Shown here piece after piece: positions 26,407 through 53,171 of a stretch of DNA of 64,000 nt (position 1 is the stretch's first letter; the number at the start of each line of letters is the position of its first letter). The stretch is from Romanomermis culicivorax (Eukaryota > Nematoda > Enoplea > Mermithida > Mermithidae), in NCBI GenBank assembly GCA_963922205.1, contig CAWUHX010000425.1, positions 122,341 to 186,340 on the forward strand, read 5' to 3'. The notes under the pieces are model-generated. The model was not told the origin of the DNA. It made no database searches and saw only the letters and a list, made by a program, of their open reading frames with translations. Made by a program: the position numbers and the translations under genes.

Positions 26407-27857
26407 TGTCACATTTTACGCCCTGTCATGTGTATGACATGTTTATCTTGGGAGAGCTGGGGAGGTTTGGGTATCTCATCAGGTAATACCGTGTTTTAGA
26501 CGTCACATTGATGGTGAACCATATCAGATTGATCCTATTACAGTGAGTAATAGGCTGTGACTCCTGATGGATACTGGCATTTTCCCCAGGCTTCCCAAGT
26601 TGGCCTTGGGGGCCTAACCTGGCAATTGGTGGCTATAGAGAGGTCTATAGTTGGTTCTCTTGTGTTGTCCTTGGGGTCTTGCTGTAGGGTAATGGACAAC
26701 GCCGCCAGGCTAGGTGCGACAATCCCCGAGTCCTACTCAGTGAGAGTGGGGACAGGGTCACCCGTAAAATGACCTAATTTATGGGACCCGATTATGAACC
26801 AGACAGCCCCTTTTAGCCCGAACCTGAGAGGTGGAGGCCCTACTTATCTGTGGAAACCTTGGGAAACCGACTTAGGAAGGATTTCCCAACAAATAACCCA
26901 CAAATAACAATAATCCCCTGAGAAGACTCACCTAGTCCTGTTTCTCAAGCGATTACGACGCAACGGGCGGCAAGTCCCTGGATGCTTTCGGTCTTCTGGC
27001 ACTAGGAGCGGGGATACGATCCTCAAAACGTCCTAGTGGCGAGCGGCGGCGAGCGGCGGCGAGCGGGAGGGAGCGGGAGGCGAAACTCCAACGGTTAATT
27101 CACGAACCGGGGCGGTCGGACACCTGGCACTGATGGGCAGCGGGGTACTGTAGGCGGTGAGCGGCGGACGCAATGAACAAGGGTAAATTTATGCAAATTT
27201 ATTGGTAGCGAGGCGGCGGACGCACGGGTGTACAATAAAAATATGCAAATTCGACGAAGGGCGGCGGACGCGAAGTTACAACCGGACGAAAGCTTGGTGA
27301 ACCCAAGAATGAGCGAAAAATTAAAGAAACATGTCCTTTTAAGGACATGTTTGGCTACAGCTGCAGCTTGGGCGGAGTTTCTCGGCGCTCAAGCTAACTT
27401 CTGCAGCTAGACGCGATGCAGAAGATGCCTATGAGCACATAGACATTTTTTCGTTCACATGCGTTTAGCACTGAGGCCGACTGCAGTGCCTATGCTAAGC
27501 ATATGAACGTCTTTAGCTAAAACTTCTTAGCTAGTCGTTTTTGCGTAACAAAAACGACGCTAATTTTTGATGATAAGAGGTGCGTGAGCGCACCAAAAAT
27601 AGCCATTTGCTCGTGGAGCATGACTGGCGGAAGTTTTTTAGCTAAAGGGCCTACTGTAGCCCGCGTTTGTAAAGAAATAAAAATACAACAAAACGAAACA
27701 TAGAAATGCATGAAAAATATAAAAAACGAACGCAAAATGCATGTGTAAAAATGAAATAACAAAAACATGATCGAGTAATAAATGAAACATGAAAAAATAA
27801 CAAAATGTCGGCATGATCAGGATCACGTGACGTTGGAGAATTGAGCGGCACGTGACA
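26407..27857 (-). repeat. 3' LTR of the 16-kb element
   Basis: TGTCACATTTTACGCC...CACGTGACA as read on the plus strand. Contains a GCGAGCGGCG tandem array near 27040-27085, absent elsewhere except in its twin. About 15 mismatches to 41189-42639. Small open frames inside are shared by both LTRs but show no domain. Confidence 0.95.
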
Positions 27858-28375
27858 CGGCGGTCCTTCGAAAAAGGGCGTCCTCGTCCTTGCAGTGGTC
27901 AGTAGTGAGGTTTTGTACGGCGTGTCCGTGGTCGTAGGTCATTCCAAGGTGTGACGGCGGAAGTGGTCGAATAGGTCCGTTGGGTTGTCGGCGGGTGGCG
28001 CCTTCTTTGATCGTAATTCGTTCGGCGGTATGGTGACCGGAGGTTGTTGATGTGTGGGGTTGCCGACATTGAATATCCTGTGCGACAGTCTAGAACACAG
28101 AAAAGAAAAATTTTCAGGGCAAGATGTAGGCTATCGCAGAGGATGCGCCCAGTGAGGTACAGATTGTCGGGCTATCGCAGGGGATGCACCCAGTGAGGTG
28201 TAGGCTATCGCGTGAGGATGCGCCTAAGGCGTGACGCTTAGGTTGCTGAACGCTCTCTTCTATCCACTAAGATCCAGCATGGACAAGAGTGGATACTTCG
28301 TGAGGGGCACGGCGGTCCTTCGAAAAAGGACGTCCTCGTCCGTAAGCGGGGACAATGAAGAGAATGTATCTTGAG
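27858..28375 (-). other. 3' region between integrase and 3' LTR, with repeats
   Basis: Contains a duplicated hairpin motif GTCCTTCGAAAAAGGAC at about 27864 (abutting the LTR) and 28317, and three tandem units built on GGCTATCGCAGGGGATGC at 28128-28220. No clear purine tract of the usual kind borders the LTR; the expected position reads as the hairpin instead. Confidence 0.7.
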
Positions 28376-30004
28376 TTACGGGTCGGGGACCTCTGCATCA
28401 AGATGTGGGTCAATCAGATTCGGTGTAAAGTCCCGGCTTATTGAGGGATACAATAAGGGTGCCGAACCTGTTGCCTGTGAAGTGGGAGGTGTATCCTCTG
28501 CTTCACTCGGTTGTTCAGGGGACACGTAAAGTCGAAGCTGGTTGACATGTACCGTGTCTTCCTGATCCATCTCGAGACGAAGTGTGACATTGGGATATGC
28601 CACACTTGTTACAAGGTAGGGCCCATCGTAGATGGGTAGCAATTTAGGAGTGAGTCCACGTTTGCTGGAGGTGCGCAGTTTGAGCACCTGATCCCCTACT
28701 TTGTACGAGACATCATGTGCCTTCTGGTCGTACGACCGTGCGTAGGCTTCCTGTGCTTTCTCAATCCGACTCTGGATTAAGGTTAACGCATTCGTGAAAT
28801 GACGTTTGACCTCCATATCATATGAGGAAACATTAATGATATGGGCCGGAGGGTTGAATGAGAGCGCGGCATCAACAGGGAGCATGGGTGTGCGACCGTA
28901 CATGAGTTCAAAGGGCGAGTACCCTGTTGACTCATTCATGCTGATATTGACGGCAAACACAGCGTATGGTAGGTGTTCATCCCAATCGGTATGTCCTTGA
29001 TGAACATACATACATAGCCGTGTGGCTAGCGTCTGATTAGCTCTTTCCACTTCGCCGTTGGTCATCGGGTGATAGGCGGTAGAGTGGATTTTCTTCGTTG
29101 CGCAGATCGCAGTGATCTCAGTCATCAGTTTTGATGTGAAATCAGTGCCACGATCTGACTGAAGAATCTGCGGTGCCCCGTGCCGGCAGACAATTTGCGT
29201 TACAAACAGCCTGGCTATGGTGTGCGCAGTGATGTCCGGAGTAGCAAAAGCCTCGACCCATTTCGTAAAGTAGTCGATAAAGACTAGGATGAAACGGTTG
29301 CCAGCTTCGCTAGTGGTCATTGGTCCCATGCAGTCGACACCTACCCGGTGAAACAGTCCCGTGATGGTGATAGGTTTCAGGGTCGCAGTGGTTTTCTGTC
29401 GAGCGGGCTTATTCCGTTGGCAAAGATCACACCGCTGACAGAAGGACTTGACATCCCGACTGAGGGAGGGCCAGTGGTATCTGCGAGCAATGAGCCGCGC
29501 AGTACGTTTAGCACCAAAGTGTCCAGCCAAGATGTCATCGTGATGAGCCCGGATAATGGTAGTAACCATGGATCTGGGTATGACGATCTTTTTGGACTCG
29601 CCTGTCCATTTCTGTAGAACGTTATCCAACAGATGGTAGCCTCGCACATCATTCTGGTCGCCCAGAGGCTTAAGAGAGCGAATGATGTCGGCTAACTCCG
29701 GATCCTCCAGCTGAGCAGCGAAAAGGTCGGGGTGCTGCGCACCGACGGATATCTCGGCATAAGACTCTGATCGTACCGGGTGCTCCGCGCCAACAGTGAT
29801 CAGTGCTGAATTACTTGAACGCGCCAGGTGCTGCACACCTTCGGTCAAGGTCCTTGATCTCGCCAGGTGCTGCGCACCATCGGTGATCATCATGACATGC
29901 CCCTCAGGTCTGTAAAGGGGAGTATCATCAATACTCTGACCGGTGAGGGAGTTAGGATCCGGCAGGTGTGATAATGCGTCAGCATTACCATTAGACTGAC
30001 CTTT
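28376..30004 (-). CDS. Gypsy integrase portion of Pol, in frame after a TGA
   Basis: In the same frame as the ORF ending at 30005 (start codons 5,397 bp apart, a multiple of 3), so integrase belongs to one Pol polyprotein cut by one TGA. The first Met is at 29893, but sequence between it and the TGA reads as the family's ADALS linker. Residues from that Met: four imperfect GAQHLARS-like repeats (5-58), HHCC zinc-binding domain (H118, H125, C152, C155), DD35E core (D187, D247, E283) and a GPY/F motif (YDGPYLV, about 415-425) before a Pro/Ser-rich tail. Integrates cDNA in the nucleus. All catalytic residues are present. Confidence 0.9.
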   Translation of the reverse strand, partial: KGQSNGNADALSHLPDPNSLTGQSIDDTPLYRPEGHVMMITDGAQHLARSRTLTEGVQHLARSSNSALITVGAEHPVRSESYAEISVGAQHPDLFAAQLEDPELADIIRSLKPLGDQNDVRGYHLLDNVLQKWTGESKKIVIPRSMVTTIIRAHHDDILAGHFGAKRTARLIARRYHWPSLSRDVKSFCQRCDLCQRNKPARQKTTATLKPITITGLFHRVGVDCMGPMTTSEAGNRFILVFIDYFTKWVEAFATPDITAHTIARLFVTQIVCRHGAPQILQSDRGTDFTSKLMTEITAICATKKIHSTAYHPMTNGEVERANQTLATRLCMYVHQGHTDWDEHLPYAVFAVNISMNESTGYSPFELMYGRTPMLPVDAALSFNPPAHIINVSSYDMEVKRHFTNALTLIQSRIEKAQEAYARSYDQKAHDVSYKVGDQVLKLRTSSKRGLTPKLLPIYDGPYLVTSVAYPNVTLRLEMDQEDTVHVNQLRLYVSPEQPSEAEDTPPTSQATGSAPLLYPSISRDFTPNLIDPHLDAEVPDP

Positions 30005-33000
30005 TCACGGCCGAATTGTCAGTTTGAATTCGGCGAGCGCGAGTCCCCACCGGGTGATCCGAGCAGAGGGGTTAGGCTTCTCCAACACTGCTTTGACCGC
30101 GGTATGGTCAGTCTGAACGACCACCTCGTGCTGGAAGAGGTATGGTCGAAAGTGCTTGACGAAATGGACAACAGCGAGAGTCTCCAGTTCTGTGATGGAG
30201 TAGTTTTTCTCGGCCGCTGTTAACCCTCGGCTGGCGTACGCGACAGGATGGTCGTATCCATGTTCGTCTAACTGGCTAAGAACCGCTCCTATCCCCGAAA
30301 TACTCGCATCAGTTTGAAGGATAAAGGATTTCGAAAAGTCCGGATGGCGCAGGATAGGAGGGTTGGTCAGCAGGCGGCGGAGTTCATCAAACGCCTCCTG
30401 CTGAGGTTTTGACCACTGGAAAGTAGTTTCCTTCCGTAAGAGCTTGGTGAGTGGCTCGCTGAGCCGGGCACAACCAGGGATGAAACGCCTGTAGTAAGAC
30501 ACGAGGCCTAGGAAGGACTTGATGTCTTTGGCGTTTTGTGGAATGGGTAGGTTTTGGACGGCGGCCAGCTTGGCTTGGTCAGGTTCTAGGCCGCTCTGTG
30601 AGATGCGATAGCCTAGGTATTCTACCTCTGAGTGCGAGAATTTGCACTTGCTCAGTCTGAGCTTCATTCCACCCCGGCGAAGACGGGCGAACACATCTGC
30701 CAGGCGCTCAAGCATTTGGGTGTGAGAGTTCCCGAACACCAAAATGTCGTCGAGATAAGTCAGAACCGTGCGCCATTGGATTCCAGTAAGGAGGAGGTCC
30801 ATAAGGCGTTGCAATGTCCCGGGCGCGTTGCATAAACCGAAAGGCAAATAATTGAATTCGTAAAGTCCAATAGGCGTATTAAAAGCCGTCTTTTCCTTAT
30901 CCGCCTCGGCAATGGGGATTGACCAATAAGCGTTAGCCTGGTCAAGGGTGGTGAAATACTTCATACCCTTGAGTGTGTCGAGAATGTCATCTATCCGCGG
31001 GAGAGGGTAGACATCCTTTTTCGTGACATCGTTAAGACCACGAAAGTCAACACACATACGGTGAGAACCGTTTTTCTTGCGCACCAGGACAGTATTGGTA
31101 GCCCACGGAGACGTGCTCGGCCGAATAATTCCTTTCTCCTGGAGCGCCTTGACCTCCTGCATGATGAGATCCTTTTCCTTAGGTGAGGACCGGTAAGGGA
31201 AACGGCGGACTGGGCGGGCATCGCCCGTGCTGATTTCGTGCTGGACGAGATCAGTGGAACCTGTGTCCTTTTCATCAAGAGCATAAAGGTCGGTGTATGC
31301 AACCAGCAGATTGAGTAAGGCTGCCCGGTCCCGAGGGGAGATGTCGGGTGAGATTACAGCATTGGCCTCGACCCACTGACGATCGAGGACGGCGTCTGAG
31401 TCAACCGGTGATTCCCGTGAGGGCTCACTATGCATCTGCACATGACCGATGGTCGTGTGCGGGTAGAGAACCACGGAATGAGTACTCGGGTTGACTACCT
31501 GAAGTGGTATGTGACCGTTGGTCACGGTACTCACCCTTCCAGCAAAATATACGTGTCTTTGAGATTCGGTGAGGTGCTTCGGAAAGAAGGCCACCTCAGG
31601 CACGTTCGTATAGATTGGTGGGACAGGGACAGTGAATCGTGTCAGGGAGCGAGGCTCCAGAATTACCAAATCCTTCAGGGGCAAGGCGCCGCGGGCAGAA
31701 GGTGGGCTGTGGATGAGACCGTCACAGGGGATTCTACTCTCTTTGAACTGGAGGAAAGATTTCTCCCAGTTCAAACCGACACAATTGAACAGGCCGAGGA
31801 AGTTGGTTCCAAGGACCAGTTCAGCTGAACAGTTCTCCTGTATTTGGACCTGAATCCGTTCAGAGACATCAGCCAGTGTAACTGTGATGTAGGCTGCTCC
31901 TAGCAGTGGGATCGGGGACCCGTTGGCTGCGATAGGGCGTGCCCTGGTTGGTGATAGTGACAAGTTGGGCAGCTGGGCCGCTAACTTGTGGTCCAGGAGT
32001 GAGAAAACAGCTCCTGTGTCGACCAGTGCCTTCGCTTCTACCCAGTTGTTGAGGAGAACTTTGATATGGGGTGTCCGAATATCATTTGGGTAAAAAGCAG
32101 TGACCACATGACGGGAATCAGGTGTGGTGGCACCACAAGCGTGTTTGGTCATACCGGACCGCTTTGGAATCGGCAGTCCCGTACGACATAGTAGACCTAC
32201 TAGAGCGTATCCGACGGAGGGTTCCGGGTCATCCAGAAGGGTGGACTCATCCTGCACCGTTAGTACGTGGTCTGAGCGATCCTTCGGACTCTGAGTAGCT
32301 CCTAGTGATTCAATCTCGGTGTCCGATAGCGGAGGCGCGTTTGGCACGGGTGATGCAGGAGCATCTGAATCACTTGGCTCACGGTATCGGCCTTTCTCTA
32401 GCGTGACTGGAGAGGTTCCAGGCGGAGGTCGAGGGCAACCTGACCCGTGCAAGGTCGACAGATGACGACTTGCCCGTCTAGAAGAGGCTCGGGATCCCCT
32501 AGTTGACCCACGTGATGAGGCAACTGAGGAGGCCCGTGAGTGTGGCCGAGAGGTGGACGAAGCCCTGGACCGCGATCGTGATCCCGACCTGTGTGAGTTT
32601 CGCGAGAGAGCACGGGTGTTCTCCCACCAGGGGTCGATCTGGTCAATCTCCGGCGTGGTCAGCAGGAGGGGTAATTCTACCGCGTCCAGCCGACAAACAT
32701 TACGTTGGTAGTCAAACATAATGTTCTTGAACTGTTCTAAGAAGTCCAGTCCGAGTATGAGGTCAACAGGTGCCCAGAAGGGAGACGTAGTCTTGCACAC
32801 ATGGAGATGTATATCGATCCGTGTGTTCGGCTGGCGGTTTCCGGGCAACATGATTTCATATGGTCCCGAAAGGATGGTATGAACGGCTTTACCATTGATG
32901 CTCATCAATGGGTTAAAGTCGTGATGTTGCTGGAACGCCATGACCGCCTTCGGACTTTCTTTAGCCAAGGCCTTATGAAGACGTTGGCTAATGATAGTGC

Positions 33001-35290
33001 GTGGGCAACCCGTGTCAAGGAAAGCAGGAGTTTCCTTGGTATCCAGCAGCACGACGAAACACGGTGTGATTCGGTCAAGCTGGGAAGGCACATCGTTTTG
33101 CACGTAGTGAAAACCGATCCAGCGTTGGACTTTGCGGTAAAGACCCAACGGGGAGAAACGGCTAGCAAACCTGACCTGTTTGCTCCGCAGACGGTAGCTG
33201 AGATAATAGGATACACCAAGATAGGCAAGGTATCCGGCACCGATCAGCACTGTCAGGGTAATTAGGATGTTAAAGATCAACTGGACCGGCCCGCTCAGGA
33301 CAGCATGCAAGCCCTGGGCGAGGGTGTGTTGTTGACCCGTAATAACATGGTTTGCTGCCAAACCGACACCTTCCAGAGAGGCCTTGATGTCGGTTCCTAC
33401 CCCTGCAAAGGCCTGGTAAATGGCGTCTGGTTGCAGGGATAGACCAGCGGTAAAGTTTACCAGCCGGTTGAGTACCGCTTCAATTTGCTCAGTCTTGTAA
33501 ACGTACTGTTTAAAGAAGGCAAAGTTTGAAGGGGTCATCCCCAACTGGTCATGGAAGAGCGCCGGTGCCTCAAAGTGAGTGATGTTGAAGCGCTGCTTCC
33601 AGAAGAGTTCCAGTGGGATGTGGCTCACATGGACCGCGCCAGACTCAGTAAACCAACCCGAGCGATTTCGGAAAATCCCTGTAAAGTGGTGATGACACGG
33701 CACAATTGGGCTAGATTTAATGAGATCCGGACCACCGGGGGTGGCGAAGTAGATGGTGCCGCCAACCTGTACAGGTAAGTACTTGTAGCAAACGTTTCCC
33801 ACCCGGTACGAGTGGTAAACGTAGGTGGCGTTGGCCTTCTGACACGGCCATATTGTCAGCGCATCGCCTGTGAATTCCGCGGTCAGGTCATTCCTCTGGA
33901 GGAATGCCCGGGCATCCAGGGTAGGGTCGAAGCGAAGCAACTGCCAAGTCAGATCAAGATAGCGTTGAGCGTGAGAGCAGAGCTCAAGCCACGTGAACCG
34001 GAAACCGTTAATTTCCGACTCCTTGATCTGCTGAGCCAGATAGTTCAGTTTGGCATTGACAGGATCGGGACGGCTGTCCGTTGCCACTCTGAACAAGTTT
34101 TGGGTCAAATTGTATCTCCCGTGGATGCGAAGGAGAAGACCCTGATCCGTCCGGACTGTGGTGGAACGTAGTTCTGGGCACAGTTGGAAGACACGGGAGT
34201 TTCCCGGGATCTTGAGGGCAACCTGTAGATCATCGATGATGACGTGGTTCCCTGACATGGACGCAGTGTAATTTCCCTTGGGGTGATAATGACACCGCGC
34301 CGTGAAGTTTTGTGCAGGCCAGACAATGACCCCGTCTAGAGTAGTGCACTGACCTGCAGTGGGACTGCATCCACCTACATCGCCTAAGGTGCTTAGGGCC
34401 GTAGTGCCGTCCCACGAAGCGACTTGTCCCTCCTCGATGAAGAGGTTAGTCACTGTCTTGCAGACGTCGCTGCAGCACCATTCGTACATCACTTCCAATG
34501 TTTGGTTTGTGCTATAAAAGCCAGGGCGAATGCCGACAAGTTTTTGTGAACCAAACATCTTAGTGCGATGTGCTAGCGTGCATGCCGCAGGCGCTAAATG
34601 CTGAGTGGTGATGACGTCTGCAGTGATGCCCCTAGAGCCGAAGAAACCAGTGTTGGTGCAGACTTTGCGGGAGCGCAATGTGCATTTCCACGCTGTGGCT
34701 GTAATCGGGTCTGAGCTAGGGACATACACCGTAACATTCATGCGCCGCGGGCTCCATGAAGATTGCGGTGGTTTACACTCTACACGCTGGGGTAACTCAA
34801 GTGGATGTCCGCTTCTTGAGAGACCGCAAAATTGATACTGAGCCGCCGGTGCTGACAAACTCACCCCTAGAAACAGTGATGCTACCAAGGTCAATTTTAT
34901 TGTCAAAAACAACTGTACAAACGTAATTTGTAAGTGTTCATTCAATTTCACAAATCTGGCCTGAGGGGCAGTGTCAGATTTCTTCTTCGTCGCTGTCGGA
35001 CGAGATTGGTTCCTGGCCGGGGAAATCGAGGACCAATCCACCGCACGGGTGGATTTCCCGGAGGATACCGATTTTCGGCGACCGTGGGGCGACTGCCGTT
35101 GGGAATGGGGATTCCTCAACGATGCTGACATCTTCGTTAACTGGACGTAAGATCTCGTCGACGGCCATGTGTTCGACGACGGGCGACTTGGTCGCAGCGG
35201 TCGGAGATGTCGTTCGGGCTGGTGCCGGCGATTTGACTTGGGCTGTTGCCGACGGTGTATGTTGGGCTGTTGCCAGCGGTGTAGGATCAT
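30005..35290 (-). CDS. Env-like glycoprotein fused to two retropepsins, RT and RNase H
   Basis: One open frame of 1,761 codons. Residues 1-110 are basic, low-complexity and overlap another ORF, so the true start is uncertain. About 115-145 is a signal-peptide-like helix ([15 protein letters not shown]). About 145-665 is a Cys-rich ectodomain with some nine N-x-S/T sites. About 670-694 is a transmembrane helix with basic residues after it (YRLRSK). Then retropepsin 1 (LDTGCPRTI about 758, LILGLDFL about 848), an SR-rich linker (about 897-945), retropepsin 2 ([11 protein letters not shown] about 1089, LVLGTNFLG about 1160), RT (about 1365-1600, YLDD about 1512) and RNase H ([16 protein letters not shown] about 1650). 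Usual Gypsy order has Env after Pol. Expression could involve splicing or frameshift from the upstream ORF. The glycoprotein class is not identified; a class III-like viral origin is only a guess. Confidence 0.9.
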
Positions 35291-35746
35291 TTGTGGGTTC
35301 CTTGGCCGGGGGCGAGAAAGCAGTAATGTCCATTTTCATTGGCGATGTCGCGGCAACAGGTGGCGCTGCTGCCGGTGATGTAGCGGCGGCAGCAGGCAGG
35401 AGCCTCCGACTGGCCTGTTCGACTGCTCGGCGGACGGCATCGACTGAAGGCGAGGATGGCTCCCCGTCCAATAAGAACTTCTCGACGGGCGAGATGGTGA
35501 TAGTCCCATTGGCAATGAACTTGAGTGCCCGTCGGGCGACGTCAGGTCCTAAGAGGCGCATTGAGACGGGTGCTGCAAGCACGACGTCGGCGGCCGTGAG
35601 CGCTTCGACATGCGATGGCTCGTTGAGCAGAGTCCACGGCAAATGCGGGTATTTCTTGGCCAGGTCGACTGACCAGATAGCCAACATCGCGTCTTGGACG
35701 GGCGATGGCGCTGTGAACAAGAAATCGATAGAGTCGTGGACTGAGA
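34974..35746 (-). CDS. overlapping accessory ORF between Gag and Env-like/Pol
   Basis: About 257 codons open in a different frame from gag and pol. It overlaps the last 200 bases of the gag frame and the first 300 of the Env/Pol frame. There is no ATG at its start (it opens after a TAG near 35747), so a frameshift from gag or an intron junction is likely. The first 90 residues look folded ([20 protein letters not shown]), the middle is Ala/Pro/Thr/Ser-rich ([13 protein letters not shown]), and it ends in an acidic SSDSDEEEI tail. Codon texture here looks more protein-like than the gag-frame tail opposite. Function unknown. It could be a Gag C-terminal extension. Confidence 0.65.
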
Positions 35747-37516
35747 TAGATTTCTAGTTCCTGCTCTAGGATCACCTGAAGAAGAAGGTAGTATACCTGA
35801 CAAATTCATGGGCTCGACCTGGTCGGGGACTTCCGTAGCCGAATCCGTGGGGATCGAAGGTGGTGGTCCTGGAGGGACGATGGGGGCCGGTGGCCCCGAA
35901 GACGTCGGATTCGCGGCTGGAGCTGGCTCGGCAGTCTTAATTTTAGGAATGCGATACGATGCGAGGATGTTAGCGTGGCCAACAAACTGCGGTGTCGTCG
36001 AGGGGTCCAGAGTGACCGGCATCGCATACTTTGGTGGTGGTGGTGGCAGCGGTATGTCCGATACGTTTATCAGTACGGGTACCTGGGCTGCTTGGACCAC
36101 TGAAAATCCAATACTGATTACGCAGACAGGATAACACTGTTGTGAAGAATCTGTCAGGTGTTCAGCAAGTGCCTCATCATCCAGGTCAAGAGGATCTGGG
36201 TGAGGAGGGCCATCGGTAGCCCCAACAGCGTTGTTGCGGCGTATGGGCTGCCGATATTGGTTTCCTATCCCGTTAGGAGGGTGATAACCATTTCTTTGAT
36301 GATACACATTTGTCCCCTGGGAAGAATAACCAGTATCTTGGTAGACATTCTCACCCCTGTTTGCCGGATTGCGCTGCGGACAGGCAGTTGATCGGTGCAC
36401 TCGCACTTGACGACAATGAGGGCATGGCCTATCACATCGGTCCGTGGGGTGGGCACGTGTACGGCAAAAATAACAGCGACCACCGTTAGCGGCGTTGTTA
36501 CCGGGAGCGGCACCGGTGGGACGCTGGGCCCGGCAGTCGGTGTCGCTATGTGTACACAGTCCGTGGAAGGAGCACGTTTGAAGGTGTGCTCCCGACGAGC
36601 GTCGCCTGGCGGACTGATTTGGTGTCGACGGCTGTGGAGGCGGCGTCTGTTGGATTGGCGCGGGTGCACGTTGCTGGGCCGTGAGCTTCGCTACGTGGGC
36701 CGTGAGCCTGGCCATTTCCTGTTTCAAGCGGCGAACCTCATGGGCGGAGGATGACGACGTTGGAGCGTTGCTCTGACGACCGTTTGCGCTTCTGTTAGGC
36801 ATATCGGGATTATATCCGGCGTGTTTAGGTTCTGAAGAGAAAACGGTGTTAGATGGAGCAGTGTACCGGATCTCGTCCCGAAAGATTTGGGATTCTGCGT
36901 AACAGGCTGCCTTGAGTGTCTCTTCAAGAGTCGTGAACTCCCTAAACTTGATACTATCTCGGAGGACCGGCTTCAGTCCTCGCAGAAAGATAGGTTTGAT
37001 GATAGAATCTCGGACATCCGTCGCGAGATCTGGATACGCTACCCTGGATAGTCTCTTGAGGTGCTCAAGGTAGACTATCGCGGACTTTGTCGGCTTCTGC
37101 AGTCGATCTTGGATCAGCTGCTGATGCAGATCAGAGTCGCGCCCTACCGGAAAATCTCTCCGTAGAAAAGCCGTAAACTCTTCATAGCCGGTAGGTATTG
37201 GAGTGCTGCTGCTAAAGTCCCGGTAGGAGGCGAGAGCAGGACCCGTGAGGCATGACTCCAGAAAGGCGATTTTATACGCATGATCCGTTTCGCTTACACC
37301 CTGGAGTGTAAAGAAACGAGTAAGATGCGACATAAAATCGGTGATAGACTCACCAAAAGCACCGGAGAAGGTGGGAGGGGCCATAAAGCTGGACACGGGA
37401 GGGTGCCTCCGACCATTCATGGCCTCTAACTTTTGGTTGAGGGGCCCAAGAGCATTCTCAAATGCTGCCTGGACTTTGTTCTCGATCTGTGAAGGGAGAT
37501 CAGCTTCCGACTTCAT
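35549..37516 (-). CDS. Gag polyprotein with zinc knuckles and a PPxY motif
   Basis: 655 codons from ATG at 37516. Residues about 45-215 match the retrotransposon capsid pattern ([61 protein letters not shown]). A coiled-coil segment follows ([19 protein letters not shown], about 260-280), then zinc-finger-like units [14 protein letters not shown] (about 315), [14 protein letters not shown] (about 345, CX2CX4HX4C) and [15 protein letters not shown] (about 365). At about 492 is PPPPKYA, a PPxY-type late-domain candidate. After about residue 585 the frame looks like an out-of-frame shadow of the accessory ORF, so functional Gag probably shifts frame near 35750. Gag packages element RNA into cytoplasmic particles. 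Confidence 0.88.
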
Positions 37517-39249
37517 GTCCGAGGATTCGTTTTCCCGTAAGGTGGTTAGAACAGACGTCCTTGCCCGTGAAGCAATTAAGTCAAATTGAATAGAGAGGGG
37601 CTCACTGGTCTGTACAGGCTGGGTACTGAGATGGCAGGAACGACGGGGTGTCCCTATTGTGTAAAATGAAAGTGAGTACTACTTTTGAATTCGCGGCGAA
37701 AGAGCGTGTGAATTCGGGAAACGCGTGCGCGACGGCGTTTGTGACGTAAACTTGATTTAGCTTAAGACTAGCGACCACGAAAAGGGAGCTAGAATGGAAT
37801 AGGATTATAAGATGCAAGATCAGAGTACATCAGGGTGACGCAGAAGGGAATTTATCTGGTCGCCCGTGATGGACAGAGGCATGGCCTGAGGTATGGGGGA
37901 ATCGATCCCGACCAAAATGTAGAGTTGGGGCCTGGACCCGGCAATGGCAATAGCTGAAGTGGATGGAAAATCAGAGATAAGAGGGGAGAAGAGGCGGTTT
38001 TTCCTGCCGAAAAGATAAGTTGACGGATGAACCCGCTCAGGAGGGATTTTTCCTGGAGGCTCGACCGCTGTACTAGTTTACAAACCTTGGGGCGAGGCGG
38101 ACTCGTAGCCGGCAAGATCCTACTCACCAGGAGTAGCACATAAAGTGGCATAAGGTGAAAAGGATGGGGTCAACTGAAAATGAACTTAAGAGGGAGCAAT
38201 AAATAGGGACAAAACTAATTTACAAACCCAGTTACGCAAAGGGGTCGCGCAGTTACGCAACAGGCCTCACTCGCCAGGAGCGATTGCGATCTCTGCATAG
38301 TGAGATGGACTATACAGGAGGTTCCGTGTTTAACGACATTCGCAAGTAACTTACAGCCGTGTCCGAAACGGGAGCCCGCATTCCGAACAGAACGGACACT
38401 CTATAGGAGTATTATACACAGCTGGTGGCCGGGTTTGCCGATCACTGAGATGAAGTGAGGTTCGCAGGTCACACAGTAGAAGAGGGAAGGAGCACGGGTA
38501 CCAAGGGTGCTATTCTGACACACTCAGTCAGTTAAAATGAAATACTCTGGATGTTTTGAGGGTGCACCCGAAAACATCTAAGGGATCACGGGTACAAGGT
38601 GTCCCTGGTTGAATATGAGTGTAAAATAACTGAGGCAGACGCAGTTATGTATCGAGGCGTACTCAATACCTTCGCTGAGGCGGACTCAACGGTGCCTATT
38701 ATTTACATGACTAACAGGGGGTGGACCGCGGAGGGGGACTCTGGGTCAGTGGCGACTCTAGCGCGGGCATCGTTAAGCCAGTTAACGAAGGCGTTCGAGT
38801 GAATGGAATATGACAGGGGGTCCTATACACTCTAGGCCCAACCGGAGGCTGTGCCGCGGTCCCTTGGGAACCACTACGGCGGGGACACTAAAGAAGATCT
38901 ATGTATGACAGCTCGATGAGATGAAAGAGAATGAGTGAATTTAGATAAGAAATTTACAAGAAGATTGCCGAACCCTTGCAGACGTCAGACACAGGCAGTA
39001 TCGACTGCAAATGCCTGCTGCCTGCCCGAGTCAGACAACCAACCCAGCTGAGGCCGAGTGTAACTCGTTCAAACCTGCAGCTAAAGCTTGAAAACAGCCA
39101 CGTGCTGATCAACAGTGCCGCTACCCGGGCGGACAACCTGATCAGTACGCAGGCTAGTGAGCATCTCAGGTGGTGTATATATGTGGACTGATGTTTCCCA
39201 GGCATCAGCCCCCAGACACACACAAACCCTTGGACAAGAGAGGTAGGTG

Positions 39250-40050
39250 ATAGGACCATGTGCCAACGACCACCTACAACTCAAGTGGAATACTCATAGG
39301 GCCGACAGTAACCTGGTGCGGACGTCAAAAGGTAGGGGTATTAACCAACACATGACCTTGGTGCTGACTGCAGGTGCCTGGGATAAGAGGATTCAAGTAT
39401 CATGTCGCAGTTGCAGACGCCAGGGGTGCGTGCCTAAGGCCGACAGAACCCCTGCAGTAGCACGTAATGTTACCGTTGCGGACATCAGGAATAGGATCAT
39501 GTAGTCTCAACTCCTACTGCGAGAACATGATACGTTGTCGTTGCTGACGTCAGCAATAGGGCCCTGGAGCCAACTATCTGTATACAGTAACACGTGATGT
39601 TGCCGTTGCTGACGTCAAAAGGTGGAACCGAGGGTCCGATACCTTAAGTCAATGACATGAGATGCAGTTGTTGCAGAAGTCAGGTATGGGATCCGTGAGA
39701 CCTGCACATCTTTGAATAGTGACACCGTGCGTCACCATTGCTGACGTCACAGATGGGGTGCAGAGAACCAGCCGACCCTCTTGCAACAACGTTGGCTTCA
39801 CCTGTTGCAGACGTCAGAAGTCATTACTGCTGGAGTGTTAACTTAAACAACAACACGTAATGTCGGTTGCTGAGGTCAGGAGTAGAACCCGGAGGGCTAC
39901 CCACCCCTTAAAGCAACAGCAAGTGAAGCGGCTGTTGCAGACATCAGTGGTTGCATCCGTGAGGCTGAACCACACAACAATAACAACCCGTAACGTTGTC
40001 ATTGCTGACGTCAAAGAGCATGACCCGTAAAGTCTATGTTCGAGATGCAA
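39250..40050. repeat. degenerate tandem array with TGACGTCA boxes
   Basis: Diverged units of about 60-100 bp built on AACACGTAATGTTGCCGTTG followed by CTGACGTCA. Exact TGACGTCA palindromes occur at 39545-39552, 39610-39617, 39742-39749 and 40006-40013, with near matches near 39321, 39811 and 39870. TGACGTCA is the canonical CREB/ATF-type bZIP site. Whether it is bound here is inference. Confidence 0.75.
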
Positions 40051-40147
40051 CAACCGGAAAATAGGAGAATCAGACCTTACAGTAAGTAGAAATGAAGAAG
40101 ATAGAGGAACTTATGTAAGGGTGTCATACTGTAGCGGTGGCGTCCGA

Positions 40148-40188
<41 letters not shown>

Positions 40189-40679
40189 CAACGCTCAGAT
40201 GACCGAGAAAGGAAAAGGGAAAGGAAATAACCAAAGACGGGGAATACGAGAGTTGGACATACGAGTGTTAAATGTGTAAACAGTCGGTGTAAAATTTTGG
40301 GGCCGGAAAAGTGAGCAATTCCGACAGTTTCCGCCGACAGACAAAAATACTGTACACAATTAACAAATCGCAGCCACGTATGACGTCCAGAATCATACGT
40401 GGAGGGTGTACGGTATCATGGGGTCATGGACCACCAACAGTCAGGAGAGGCCGTAAACCCCTACAGCTGTGATACCAGTACCCGCGTATGGGTATACTGT
40501 AGTTACAGTACGGGGGATGGGCACAGGCGTACTGTAATGGCACCCACCCGGAGGGCTACAGTATACCAATCAGGATTAGGGAAGAGGGGGGGGATAAGGG
40601 AAAAGAAAACAGATAAGGTAGTTTACAACACAGATTAAGTATGCAGAATGTACAGAATGAATCAGAGGAGAAATACAGA

Positions 40680-41165
40680 ATACTCGATATATAACTCAAC
40701 TCTGGGACAAATAACTCGACTCTGGGGATAAATAACTCGACTCAGGGGAAATTTATTACTCATAGGGGGGTTATATATACGCATGAGATAATTATTTACA
40801 CATATAGATCACATTTAGATCACTCGTAAGGGCAAATCCCGTCTTACAGTAATTAAATTCGATGTTCAGGGATAAATTCCCGACCTACAGTAATAACTCT
40901 CGGTGGCACGGGAAAAATTCCGACTTACAGTAATAATATGCGACTTGAGGGGAGGTATCCGACCTACAGTAACGGTAATCCGAAATAAGGGACATTCCCG
41001 ACCCATTAGGCAGTAAACCCGAATCTGGGGGGTCTCCGACTTATTGGATGGCTAGTGCCCAATTTTAAGGGGGCTTGTCCGACTTAAAATGGGAGTTGAC
41101 CCGACCTGGGGGTAGTTCCGACCCAAGGGTAAAGTTTTTGCACTTAAGGGCGAGTGCCAGACTTA
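40680..41165. repeat. degenerate short repeats next to the PBS
   Basis: Units such as AACTCGACTCTGGGGATAA (40680-40750) and CCGACCTACAGTAATAA (40840-40975), then CCGACTTA / CCCGACC blocks to 41160. Order and spacing drift, as in decaying minisatellites. They sit between 5' LTR and leader, where packaging signals often lie. Confidence 0.6.
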
Positions 41166-41170
41166 AGGTC

Positions 41171-41188
41171 GATTTTCCAGCCTCGCCA
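41171..41188 (-). promoter_or_regulatory. primer binding site
   Basis: Directly after the 5' LTR the minus strand reads TGGCGAGGCTGGAAAATC. PBSs begin TGG to pair with a tRNA 3' CCA, so reverse transcription here is probably tRNA-primed. I cannot name the tRNA without a database. Confidence 0.75.
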
Positions 41189-42639
41189 TGTCACATTTTA
41201 CGCCCTGTCACGTGTATGACATGTTTATCTTGGGAGAGCTGGGGAGGTTTGGGTATCTCATCAGGTAATACCGTGTTTTAGACGTCACATTGATGGTGAA
41301 CCATATCAGATTGATCCTATTACAGTGAGTAATAGGCTGTGACTCCTGATGGATACTGGCATTTTCCCCAGGCTTCCCAAGTTGGCGTTGGGGGCCTAAC
41401 CTGGCAATTGGTGGCTATAGAGAGGTCTATAGTTGGTTCTCTTGTGTTGTCCTTGGGGTCTTGCTGTAGGGTAATGGACAAGGCCGCCAGGCTAGGTGCG
41501 ACAATCCCCGAGTCCTACTCAGTGAGAGTGGGGACAGGGTCACCCGTAAAATGACCTAATTTATGGGACCCGATTATGAACCAGACAGCCCCTTTTAGCC
41601 CGAACCTGAGAGGTGGAGGCCCTACTTATCTGTGGAAACCTTGGGAAACCGACTTAGGAAGGATTTCCCAACAAATAACCCACAAATAACAATAATCCCC
41701 TGAGAAGACTCACCTAGTCCTGTTTCTCAAGCGATTACGATGCAACGGGCGGCAAGTCCCTGGATGCTTTCGGTCTTCTGGCACTAGGAGCGGGGATACG
41801 ATCCTCAAAACGTCCTAGTGGCGAGCGGCGGCGAGCGGCGGCGAGCGGGAGGGAGCGGGAGGCGAAACTCCAACGGTTAATTCACGAACCGGGGGGGTCG
41901 GACACCTGGCACTGATGGGCAGCGGGGTACTGTAGGCGGTGAGCGGCGGACGCAATGAACAAGGGTAAATTTATGCAAATTTATTGGTAGTGAGGCGGCG
42001 GACGCACGGGTGTACAATAAAAATATGCAAATTCGACGAAGGGCGGCGGACGCGGAGTTACAACCGGACGAAAGCTTGGTGAACCCAAGAATGAGCGAAA
42101 AATTAAAGAAACATGTTCTTTTAAGGACTTGTTTGGCTACAGCTGCAGCTTGGGCTGAGTTTCTCGGCGCTCAAGCTAACTTCTGCAGCTAGACGCGATG
42201 CAGAAGATGCCTATGAACACATAGACATTTTTTCATTCACATGCGTTTAGCACTGAGGCCGACTGCAGTGCCTATGCTAAGCATATGAACGTCTTTAGCT
42301 AAAACTTCTTAGCTAGTCGTTTTTGCGTAACAAAAACGACGCTAATTTTTGATGATAAGAGGTGCGTGAGCGCACCAAAAATAGCCATGTGCTCGTGGAG
42401 CACAACTGGCGGAAGTTTTTTAGCTAAAGGGCCTACTGTAGCCCGCGTTTGTAAAGAAATAAAAATACAACAAAACGAAACATAGAAATGCATGAAAAAT
42501 ATAAAAAACGAACGCAAAATGCATGTGTAAAAATGAAATAACAAAAACATGATCGAGTAATAAATGAAACATGAAAAAATAACAAAATGTCGGCATGATC
42601 AGGATCACGTGACGTTGGAGAATTGAGCGGCACGTGACA
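41189..42639 (-). repeat. 5' LTR of the 16-kb element
   Basis: Same length as 26407-27857. Differences include C/G, C/T and A/G changes scattered through it and a small cluster near 42388-42406. Transcription would start here and run leftwards into the leader. Confidence 0.95.
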
Positions 42640-42958
42640 CTGTATCTAAAGCTTTAGAAAAATCCAAATATATTACACCACCTGCCGTTTTTTGTCAATG
42701 TTGTCAATTATGTATACAGAGAACAATAGAAGATGGGTTTCACTGAAACTTTTCTTTACAAAACCAAGCTGATGATCAGAAATACAATTATTAACACTAA
42801 GCAAGTTTGTCACTTGAGCTTTTATGATTCTTTCAAGAATCCTACAATAAACACAAGTTAAAGATACAGGCTGGGCTAAAGATACAGGTAGTTGGATTTT
42901 TCACTCATGATTCCTTTCATGAAAACTGGAGTCACGTGAGCCATTTTCCAGATGCTTG
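42640..42958 (-). pseudogene. CR1-like LINE, piece 4 (N-terminal RT motifs)
   Basis: Minus-strand reading gives WKMAHVTPVF, then the RILERIIKAQV, ISDHQLGFVKKSFSETHLL and VVYLDFSKALDT motifs of CR1-like RT. The last motif is cut by the LTR element and continues in piece 5 at 26402 (VPYSKLL). The other end is cut by the solo LTR at 42959. Confidence 0.88.
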
Positions 42959-44256
42959 TGTCACGTGCCACTCAATTCCCCAATGTCACCTAATTCCTAT
43001 CATGTTGATACTTTATTTTTTCGTCACTTTTTGTTTTACAATCATTTACTTTAATTTTGTTCCATTTATTGTTTTGCACATGCATTTTCATGTTTCGTTT
43101 TATTGTATTTTTCGTTTATTTTATTTCTTTATGCACACAGGCTACAGTACGCCCTTTAGCTAAAAACTTCCGCCAAAAGGTGCTTCATGGGCACATGGCT
43201 ATTTTAGGTGCGTTCCATGCACCTCTTATCACCTGAACTAGCATCATTTTTGTTACACAAAAACGACTAGCTAAGAAGTTTTGCAATGTTCATATGCTTA
43301 GCATAGGCACTGCAAGTCAGCCTCAGTGCTAAATGCATGCGAGCGAAAAATGTCTATGTGCTCATAGGCATCTTCTGCATCACGTCTAGCTGCAGAAGTT
43401 AGCTTCGGCATTGAAAACTCCACCCAGGCTGGTGCTGTAGCCAACAAAGTCCTTAAAAGGACATGTTTCTTTAGGTTTTTGCTCATTTTTGGGTTTACCA
43501 ACTTTCGTCCATTTTTCTTTAGCCTTCACATCGGCTGCCCTTATTTTACATATTTTTAATATATATATACATTGCATCCACGGCCCCCTAATTTACATAT
43601 TTCTACCTGTCGCTTGTGCCAGGTCACCACCCATACATATTATTCAATAAAGAGAGTCGCCACCAGCCTCCATCATTGCCTTCAGTTGAGAAACTGAGTG
43701 GGTACATCCCCACTTATTCTCCAACAGAAACACCAAACCAGGGAGCCCATCGCACCTTGTCAAATTGTTTGAGAAACAGGACTAGGTGATTCTTCTTACG
43801 GGGTTTTTAATTGTTGTGGGATATATTTTGGGGAACAGTTCTTAAGTCCGTTTTTCCCCTGAGTCTCCCTCAGATAAGTAGGGCTCTTTCTTTTCCGTTT
43901 TGGGCTAAAAAGAAACTTTCTGGTTCATAATCCGGTCCCAGAGTTGGGTGATTTCACCAATGACCTTGTCCCCATTCACACTCGGCAGGACCCCCGGATT
44001 GTCACCCCTAACCTGGCGGCGTTGTCCATTATTCTACAGCAGCACCCTCAGAACAACACCAGAGAACCTATGGGAATCTCCTATAGCCAGTACTAGACAG
44101 GTTAGGTTTCTAACAAGCAGGAAAAGTCTCCTAATGGGGTCACAGCCTGTCATTCACTGTAACAGGATCATATTGTCTAACAATATGATATGGTTTTTCC
44201 ATCAATGTGATGTAAATTCCACTCAATGAGTGATCACTTTTCCACTTGATGTGACA
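42959..44256 (+). mobile_element. diverged solo LTR of the 16-kb element's family
   Basis: Starts TGTCACGTGCCACTCAATTC and ends GATGTGACA, matching the reverse complement of the 16-kb element's LTR along its length with many changes and some deletions. Flanks CTTG (left) and CTCA (right) fit a 4-bp duplication of CTCA with two later changes. The reconstructed LINE reading across the site supports this. Older than, and opposite to, the full element 315 bp away. Confidence 0.85.
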
Positions 44257-52024: not shown

Positions 52025-53171
52025 TGTCACATTAAGTAGATTAGGAGCCATGTCACATTAAACGAATGGGTGATGAGTCACATTGATGGGAAAACCCATA
52101 CCATATCCCATAGGAAAAACGGCCATGACACTGTAGGTGACATGCTGTGACCCCGTTGGGTGGCTCCGTGAGGTTATCTACTTCGGGAACCTAACCCAGC
52201 TGGTACTACCACAGGAAAACCTATGGTGTACCTCGGCCTTGTCCTAGGGTTCAGCTGTAGAATAATGGACAACGCAGCCGGGTCAGGGGTGGCAATTCCT
52301 AGTCCTCATTCACTGAGAATGAGGGACTGTGCCATTTGTGGAATGGCTTACTGTAGGGGACCCGATTGTCAACCTAAATCCCCTAATTGGCCCTGACCTT
52401 AAGGGTTCAAGGGCTTCCTCAACTGAGGGTACTCTCAAGGGAAAACTGGCTTAAGGAGGATTTCCACAAATATACCCTCAACAATAATAACCCCTGAGAA
52501 GACTCACTAAATCCTCTTCTCAAAGTACTCGGCGCTGGGCGATGGGTTCAAGGGTCAAACGTGGGTCCTACGGATGGCGGGGAAGCGGGTTCAATAATCC
52601 GAAAGCGATTCGGCGTGGAGGGTAGGCAAATGTGAGTCAGCGGGCAAAGATATCAAAACGTTCCTCCGGGAGGCGACTGGGGTTCTCAATCAACAGGCGA
52701 GGGGGTAAACTCCTAAGGTTGGGTTACGGTAACTGGCAACGCAAGGGAGACCGAAGGCTAATATGTAAATTTAGTAATGAAGGGTGGCAGATGCAGGCAA
52801 AATATGCAAATTTATAATAAATGATGTTGACGAACGCCAAGTTGTAAGCTAAAAACGCAGAAGACGGTTTAGGCCCAAAAATGAGTGCAAAATTCACCAA
52901 ACAAGCCCTTTTAAAGGGCCCCGTAATCTACAGTATGCCTTGGGCGGAGCTAAGACACACCCAAGCTAACTTCTGCAGCAGAAATCGCTGCAGAAGATGC
53001 CTATGGTCACATAGACATTTTCCAGTTCACTACGTTAAGCATTGGGGCGAGTTTTCACTCTCCATGCTTAACATATGAACGTCATCTAGTGAGAATCTCC
53101 AAACTAGTCGTTTCACGTTGCGAAACGTCGCTAGTTTTTACTGATAAGAGGTGCATGTTGTGCTCCAATTA

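Follow-up and report, generated by a model that had tools for sequence, protein, structure and literature searches.

In the nematode Romanomermis culicivorax, a family of Ty3/Gypsy-type LTR retroelements carries an envelope glycoprotein (Env) between Gag and Pol, in one open frame with both. The reading that we consider probable is that a captured class III fusogen sits between nucleocapsid and protease (PR), in a single Gag-Env-PR-RT-RNaseH-IN polyprotein that would span the membrane. The same order of domains recurs in distantly related elements.

The window, that is, the whole stretch of 64,000 nucleotides that was analysed (contig CAWUHX010000425.1), contains one such element of 16,233 bp on the minus strand, on which all features given below are located. 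Its 5' LTR (TG..CA; 41189..42639) and 3' LTR (26407..27857) are 1,451 bp long and align with 15 mismatches in 1,452 columns (98.97% identity); the element is flanked by a 4-bp duplication, ACAG. Such termini and target duplication, examined here in one copy, are those of Metaviridae. A 3.5-kb leader with short tandem repeats (37679..41188) follows the 5' LTR, and its start (TGGCGAGGCTGG) is read as PBS-like by position only. The GC content is 47-55% in 2-kb segments wholly within the element (28001-42000) and mostly 33-37% in the flanks of the window. Scanning of the window gave no Rfam match at gathering score and no gene with ARAGORN.

The original prediction described a frame of 1,761 codons with a signal-peptide-like helix, a cysteine-rich ectodomain bearing N-glycosylation sequons, a transmembrane helix, protease, reverse transcriptase (RT) and RNase H, and each of these is present in the 1,761-residue open reading frame at 30005-35290. 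It had Env fused to Pol, which holds, but it overlooked that Gag belongs to the chain: Gag (35549-37516) and integrase (IN; 28376-30004) are in the same frame as well. In the window copy this frame is split by stops at 35551 (TAG), 35338 (TGA) and 30007 (TGA), ahead of the final stop (TAA, 28378); with its three in-frame stops, this copy is a decayed member of its family. The span bounded by the stops ahead of Gag and behind integrase measures 3,100 codons, and translation does not have to begin at the ATG at 35290.

The other copies in the host genome (359 Mb, 595 contigs) indicate what an intact member looks like. All 59 copies scored, out of 4,316 candidates, align over the full length of residues 1-763 (linker, Env and the start of the protease) with 97-100% identity, and thus share the joint between Env and protease, in agreement with the predicted position of Env between Gag and Pol. 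The glycoprotein is neither absent nor downstream in any of them, in a list that was made with an Env-containing query and hence leaves Env-less copies outside. The Env-containing query part is free of stops in 47 of the 59, and 17 have a single open frame of 3,098-3,100 codons. These frames, assigned to the Gag-to-integrase span by their length and not by end-to-end reading, match that span, and the intact product is therefore expected to be one Gag-Env-PR-RT-RNaseH-IN chain. Seven sibling loci were read across 1,763 codons spanning both joints: six are stop-free, and one (L007) is no longer in frame from codon 1,584 onward. Env is thus joined to both Gag and Pol in intact family members. The Pfam E-values and the match of all scored copies to residues 1-763 show that the frame is real and not a product of chance.

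The Gag part (35549..37516), ending at the in-frame TAG, consists of a Ty3-type capsid (36902-37348; PF19259, E=1e-7, above cut-off) and two CCHC-like knuckles found by motif search (36434-36475 and 36380-36424). It is followed by a Gag-Env linker (34961..35548), which is partly tandem-repeated and contains the second in-frame stop. About 110 residues at the N-terminal side of the first membrane helix in the 1,761-residue frame look like part of this linker, since the DNA is partly tandem-repeated and the copies, with few changes to judge by, give no sign of constraint. Behind Env, a first retropepsin-like stretch (32681..33073; DTG at 33008-33016) has a weak Pfam match below cut-off (E=0.007), and a second aspartic protease domain, also with DTG (31796..32059), matches PF13975 above cut-off (E=5e-10). 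Then come RT with YLDD (30602..31084; PF00078, RVT_1, E=6e-34), RNase H (30026..30415; Pfam E=4e-36), which is followed by the third in-frame stop, and integrase (28376..29893), with H2C2 at 29405-29581, rve at 29066-29299 and a GPY motif at 28616-28624.

The PR-RT-RH-IN order and the Ty3-type capsid of the window element are those of Metaviridae, and the RT-RH-IN order is found in all five single-chain relatives described below. In a comparison with solved structures only, among which no BEL/Pao RT is known to be, an RT profile from six elements has Ty3 RT as its closest match in the PDB (7e-71), followed by the 'enzymatic polyprotein' 8r0s (1e-51), the RT of A9-protease (foamy-type) proteins (2e-37), MLV-type RT (about 2e-26) and HIV RT (about 1e-16). 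A GPF/Y motif is present at the integrase C-terminus in four of six elements (the window, P0007, P0008 and P0010), with GVF in P0005 and GPK in P0009. By its RT, as judged against these structures, its domain order, its LTRs and the GPF/Y motif, the element is assigned to Ty3/Gypsy.

The Env part begins with a putative internal signal/anchor helix, TM1 (34856..34912; residues 127-145; hydropathy 2.1-2.2), and ends with a C-terminal transmembrane helix, TM2 (33224..33280; residues 671-689). Between them lies an ectodomain (33284..34843) with 16 cysteines and nine N-glycosylation sequons. Pfam finds PF24664 (Monjiviricetes_fusion) within it at 33626-34060 (E=5.7e-13). With phmmer, the window Env alone gave four weak matches in the PDB, all to bacterial adhesins; a profile from seven relatives reached cytomegalovirus gB at 2e-9. 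In the structural search against fusion proteins by which the original prediction was to be checked, gB accounts for all 50 of the Foldseek PDB matches listed. The predicted structure is of modest confidence (pLDDT 57, pTM 0.33), and an earlier model from three sequences (pLDDT 36) was set aside. By homology and predicted fold the ectodomain belongs to the class III (gB-like) fusogens, an assignment that the original prediction did not make, and it would be expected to have fusion activity.

The order Gag-Env-PR-RT, for which related genomes were to be searched, exists elsewhere. Protein searches retrieved Gag-Env-RT-RH-IN single chains in P0005 (2,535 residues), P0007 (2,327), P0008 (2,293), P0009 (2,847) and P0010 (2,486); in each, PF24664 precedes RT and integrase comes last. 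A sixth protein, P0006 (1,186 residues), is Gag-Env only and stops after Env, so that the chain may be split in its element. In four of the five single-chain relatives, a protease with the DTG motif lies between Env and RT; Pfam places it above cut-off in P0007 and P0008 and below it in P0005 and P0009, and P0010 has DCG at this place and no Pfam match. Ahead of Env, Gag passes the Pfam cut-off in P0009 (by a zinc knuckle) and in P0010 (by Retrotrans_gag) and falls below it in P0005, P0007 and P0008; six of six proteins have a CCHC-like motif. Pairwise identities are 31-39% for Env and 37-54% for RT-RH, and hence the plan is either ancient or was disseminated in the distant past. That at least five distantly related elements have it suggests a functioning design of some age and not an accident.

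The window element groups with P0009 as its sister in each of the three trees, for Env (84/92), RT-RH (94/97) and IN (93/95); no branch reaches the starred level in any of them, and most other branches are unresolved. Over 15 pairs, Spearman correlations of distances are 0.45 for Env-RT (p=0.095), 0.08 for Env-IN and 0.61 for RT-IN (p=0.016), and co-inheritance of Env and Pol is thus not supported by this test. The weak Env-RT and absent Env-IN correlations leave room for a later exchange of Env between elements. An Env-only profile had no match at E<=0.001 among the 8,000 best candidates scored from proteins of about 350-1,100 residues, so that a stand-alone donor of Env was not found by sequence. 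Neither the viral contigs, scanned with two Env queries (A1 and A3) and one RT query (A2), nor the genome contigs, scanned with Env query A1, yielded a confirmed relative.

Several features of Env are shared by the window element and P0005 to P0010. The ectodomain has 16 or 17 cysteines in all seven, 16 of which are invariant in the alignment, and TM2 is clear in all seven. The membrane topology originally predicted is plausible throughout, but TM1 is its weaker part: it exceeds the 19-residue threshold in five of the seven, while in P0005 and P0009 the hydrophobicity is lower (1.5-1.6 over 15 residues). The flank after TM2 carries a net positive charge in all seven, and the flank before TM1 does so in six (P0007, -2). 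An R-X-K/R-R motif, which we take to be a furin site, occurs in the 150 residues that precede the conserved core of P0005 and P0010 and is absent from this stretch of the window element.

Among seven copies, changes in Env are mostly silent: N/S is 0.34 versus 2.08 expected, a ratio of 0.16. PR-RT resembles Env (0.22), while the adjoining linker gives 1.71, a value based on about a dozen changed codons. These copies were the best protein scores to an Env plus linker query, which favours few replacements there; however, replacements are not scarce in the linker, which is inside the query, but are scarce in PR-RT, which is outside it. As pairs of copies share history, their counts are not independent of each other.

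On this basis, the following course of events can be proposed. A Ty3/Gypsy-type LTR retroelement would have captured a class III glycoprotein of the type found in negative-strand RNA viruses (Monjiviricetes). The full-length genomic RNA would be translated once, starting with Gag in the cytosol; TM1 would then lead the chain into the ER membrane and the ectodomain would fold in the lumen, until TM2 halts transfer and Pol is synthesised in the cytosol, the chain crossing the membrane twice. Signal peptidase may cut after TM1, and cuts in the cytosol may be made by the element's own protease. The output would thereby be Gag, Env and Pol in a 1:1:1 ratio, obtained without splicing or frameshifting and delivered to one patch of membrane, where budding of particles with Env, able to fuse, could take place. 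With more reserve, we lean towards a lineage of enveloped, possibly infectious Ty3/Gypsy elements that obtain all their proteins from one such twice-membrane-spanning Gag-Env-Pol polyprotein.

It could also be imagined that the single frame is real, yet Env or Env-Pol is made separately from a spliced RNA, and that the fused chain is a by-product. Gypsy Env is reportedly made in this way. Retroviral Env is described as the product of a separate spliced RNA (PMC10309623), and the 3.5-kb leader has space for splice donors. A separately spliced Env, however, could do without an open frame through both joints, and the presence of such a frame in 17 of the 59 copies and in five distant elements makes this explanation rather unlikely. 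A slightly less likely one is that Env is no longer a fusogen and that, in an intracellular element, its sole task is that of a membrane anchor when assembly takes place at internal membranes. This is compatible with a single chain, and the fusion of Env to Gag and Pol, by which it is always co-delivered, speaks for it; a mere anchor has no need of 16 invariant cysteines and a gB-like ectodomain, kept in all seven elements. The joints of Gag with Env and of Env with Pol in the database proteins might be artefacts of gene models or assembly, as P0005 to P0010 come from contigs of 8-19 kb and are known here as proteins only, but this is very improbable because in the window and the sibling loci the frame is read directly from DNA and is free of introns. 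A recent, functionless rearrangement in this copy or one family, to which the three stops of the window copy might point, is the most far-fetched of all and is refuted for the family by the joint common to all 59 scored copies and by the distant relatives, six other proteins with 31-39% Env identity in which the placement recurs. The few replacements in Env also speak against it.

The single Gag-Env-Pol chain sets the element apart from known systems. Herpesvirus gB and the Monjiviricetes glycoproteins (PF24664), with which Env shares its ectodomain profile and fold, are separate proteins and not internal segments of a polyprotein. Atlas virus and the hookworm belpaoviruses are likewise LTR elements with a fusogen captured from an RNA virus and an intron-free polyprotein (2,828 residues), but they are described as BEL/Pao elements of Gag-Pol-Env order with a C-terminal class II (phlebovirus Gc-like) fusogen (PMC9094657), an order not found in the window or in P0005 and P0007 to P0010. 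Dingle, a Ty3/Gypsy element of Dimorphilus, has a gB-like Env too, but downstream of integrase (PMC7854359). In the mosquito element Anakin, an LTR element has captured a chuvirus glycoprotein; it belongs to BEL/Pao, and the parts of its description at hand mention no Gag-Env-Pol chain (PMC7642597). The errantiviruses, such as gypsy, are also Metaviridae with Env, but according to the ICTV Metaviridae profile Env, where present, is downstream of integrase (PMC7879559); instead of an env gene of its own 3' of integrase, Env precedes PR/RT in the window, P0005 and P0007 to P0010. Troyka is described as lacking an envelope (PMC12440569), and no Gag-Env-Pol chain was found in the text at hand on bdelloid elements (PMC5408684) and Drosophila sORF2 elements (PMC11952523). 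Within the accessible text of the open-licence PMC literature, no description of Env between Gag and PR was found, which does not prove its absence from print. Set against the descriptions of known elements, the gene order is apparently undescribed.

The separate expression of Env is commonly ascribed to its need for the secretory pathway, Gag and Pol being cytosolic. A conserved Gag-Env-Pol chain may represent another way to reconcile a secretory Env with cytosolic Gag and Pol, by means of an internal signal and a stop-transfer helix, and it places the capture of a class III fusogen at a new position. It also makes the co-assembly and dosage of Env, Gag and Pol directly testable in one gene. 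If this is true, both the retroviral genome plan and the route of assembly would be new, with neither splicing nor frameshifting in use, the three products fixed at 1:1:1 and Pol anchored to the fusogen.

The protease region of the Ty3/Gypsy-type element (31796-33073, minus strand) contains a pair of DTG retropepsin-like stretches, separated by a linker rich in Arg and Ser. The second of these stretches has a clear Pfam match (5e-10) and the first a weak one (0.007); it is possible that together they constitute a single-chain protease pair.

The linker that joins Gag to Env harbors a 24-bp tandem repeat (35216-35283, minus strand). In this linker, replacement changes exceed the expectation in the comparison between copies of the element, which is based on few changes. 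The distant relative P0009, which pairs with the window element in trees, bears an RNA recognition motif (RRM_1, 1.8e-8) at residues 419-475, C-terminal to the Gag zinc knuckle.

The leader of the window element is 3.5 kb long, lies between LTR and Gag (37679-41188, minus strand) and contains tandem repeats of 21 bp and of 40-41 bp. Elsewhere in the window, the stretches 42958-44213, in inverted orientation, and 52078-53157 display about 70-78% similarity to the LTRs of the element and, as judged from sequence, are remnants of related LTR families.
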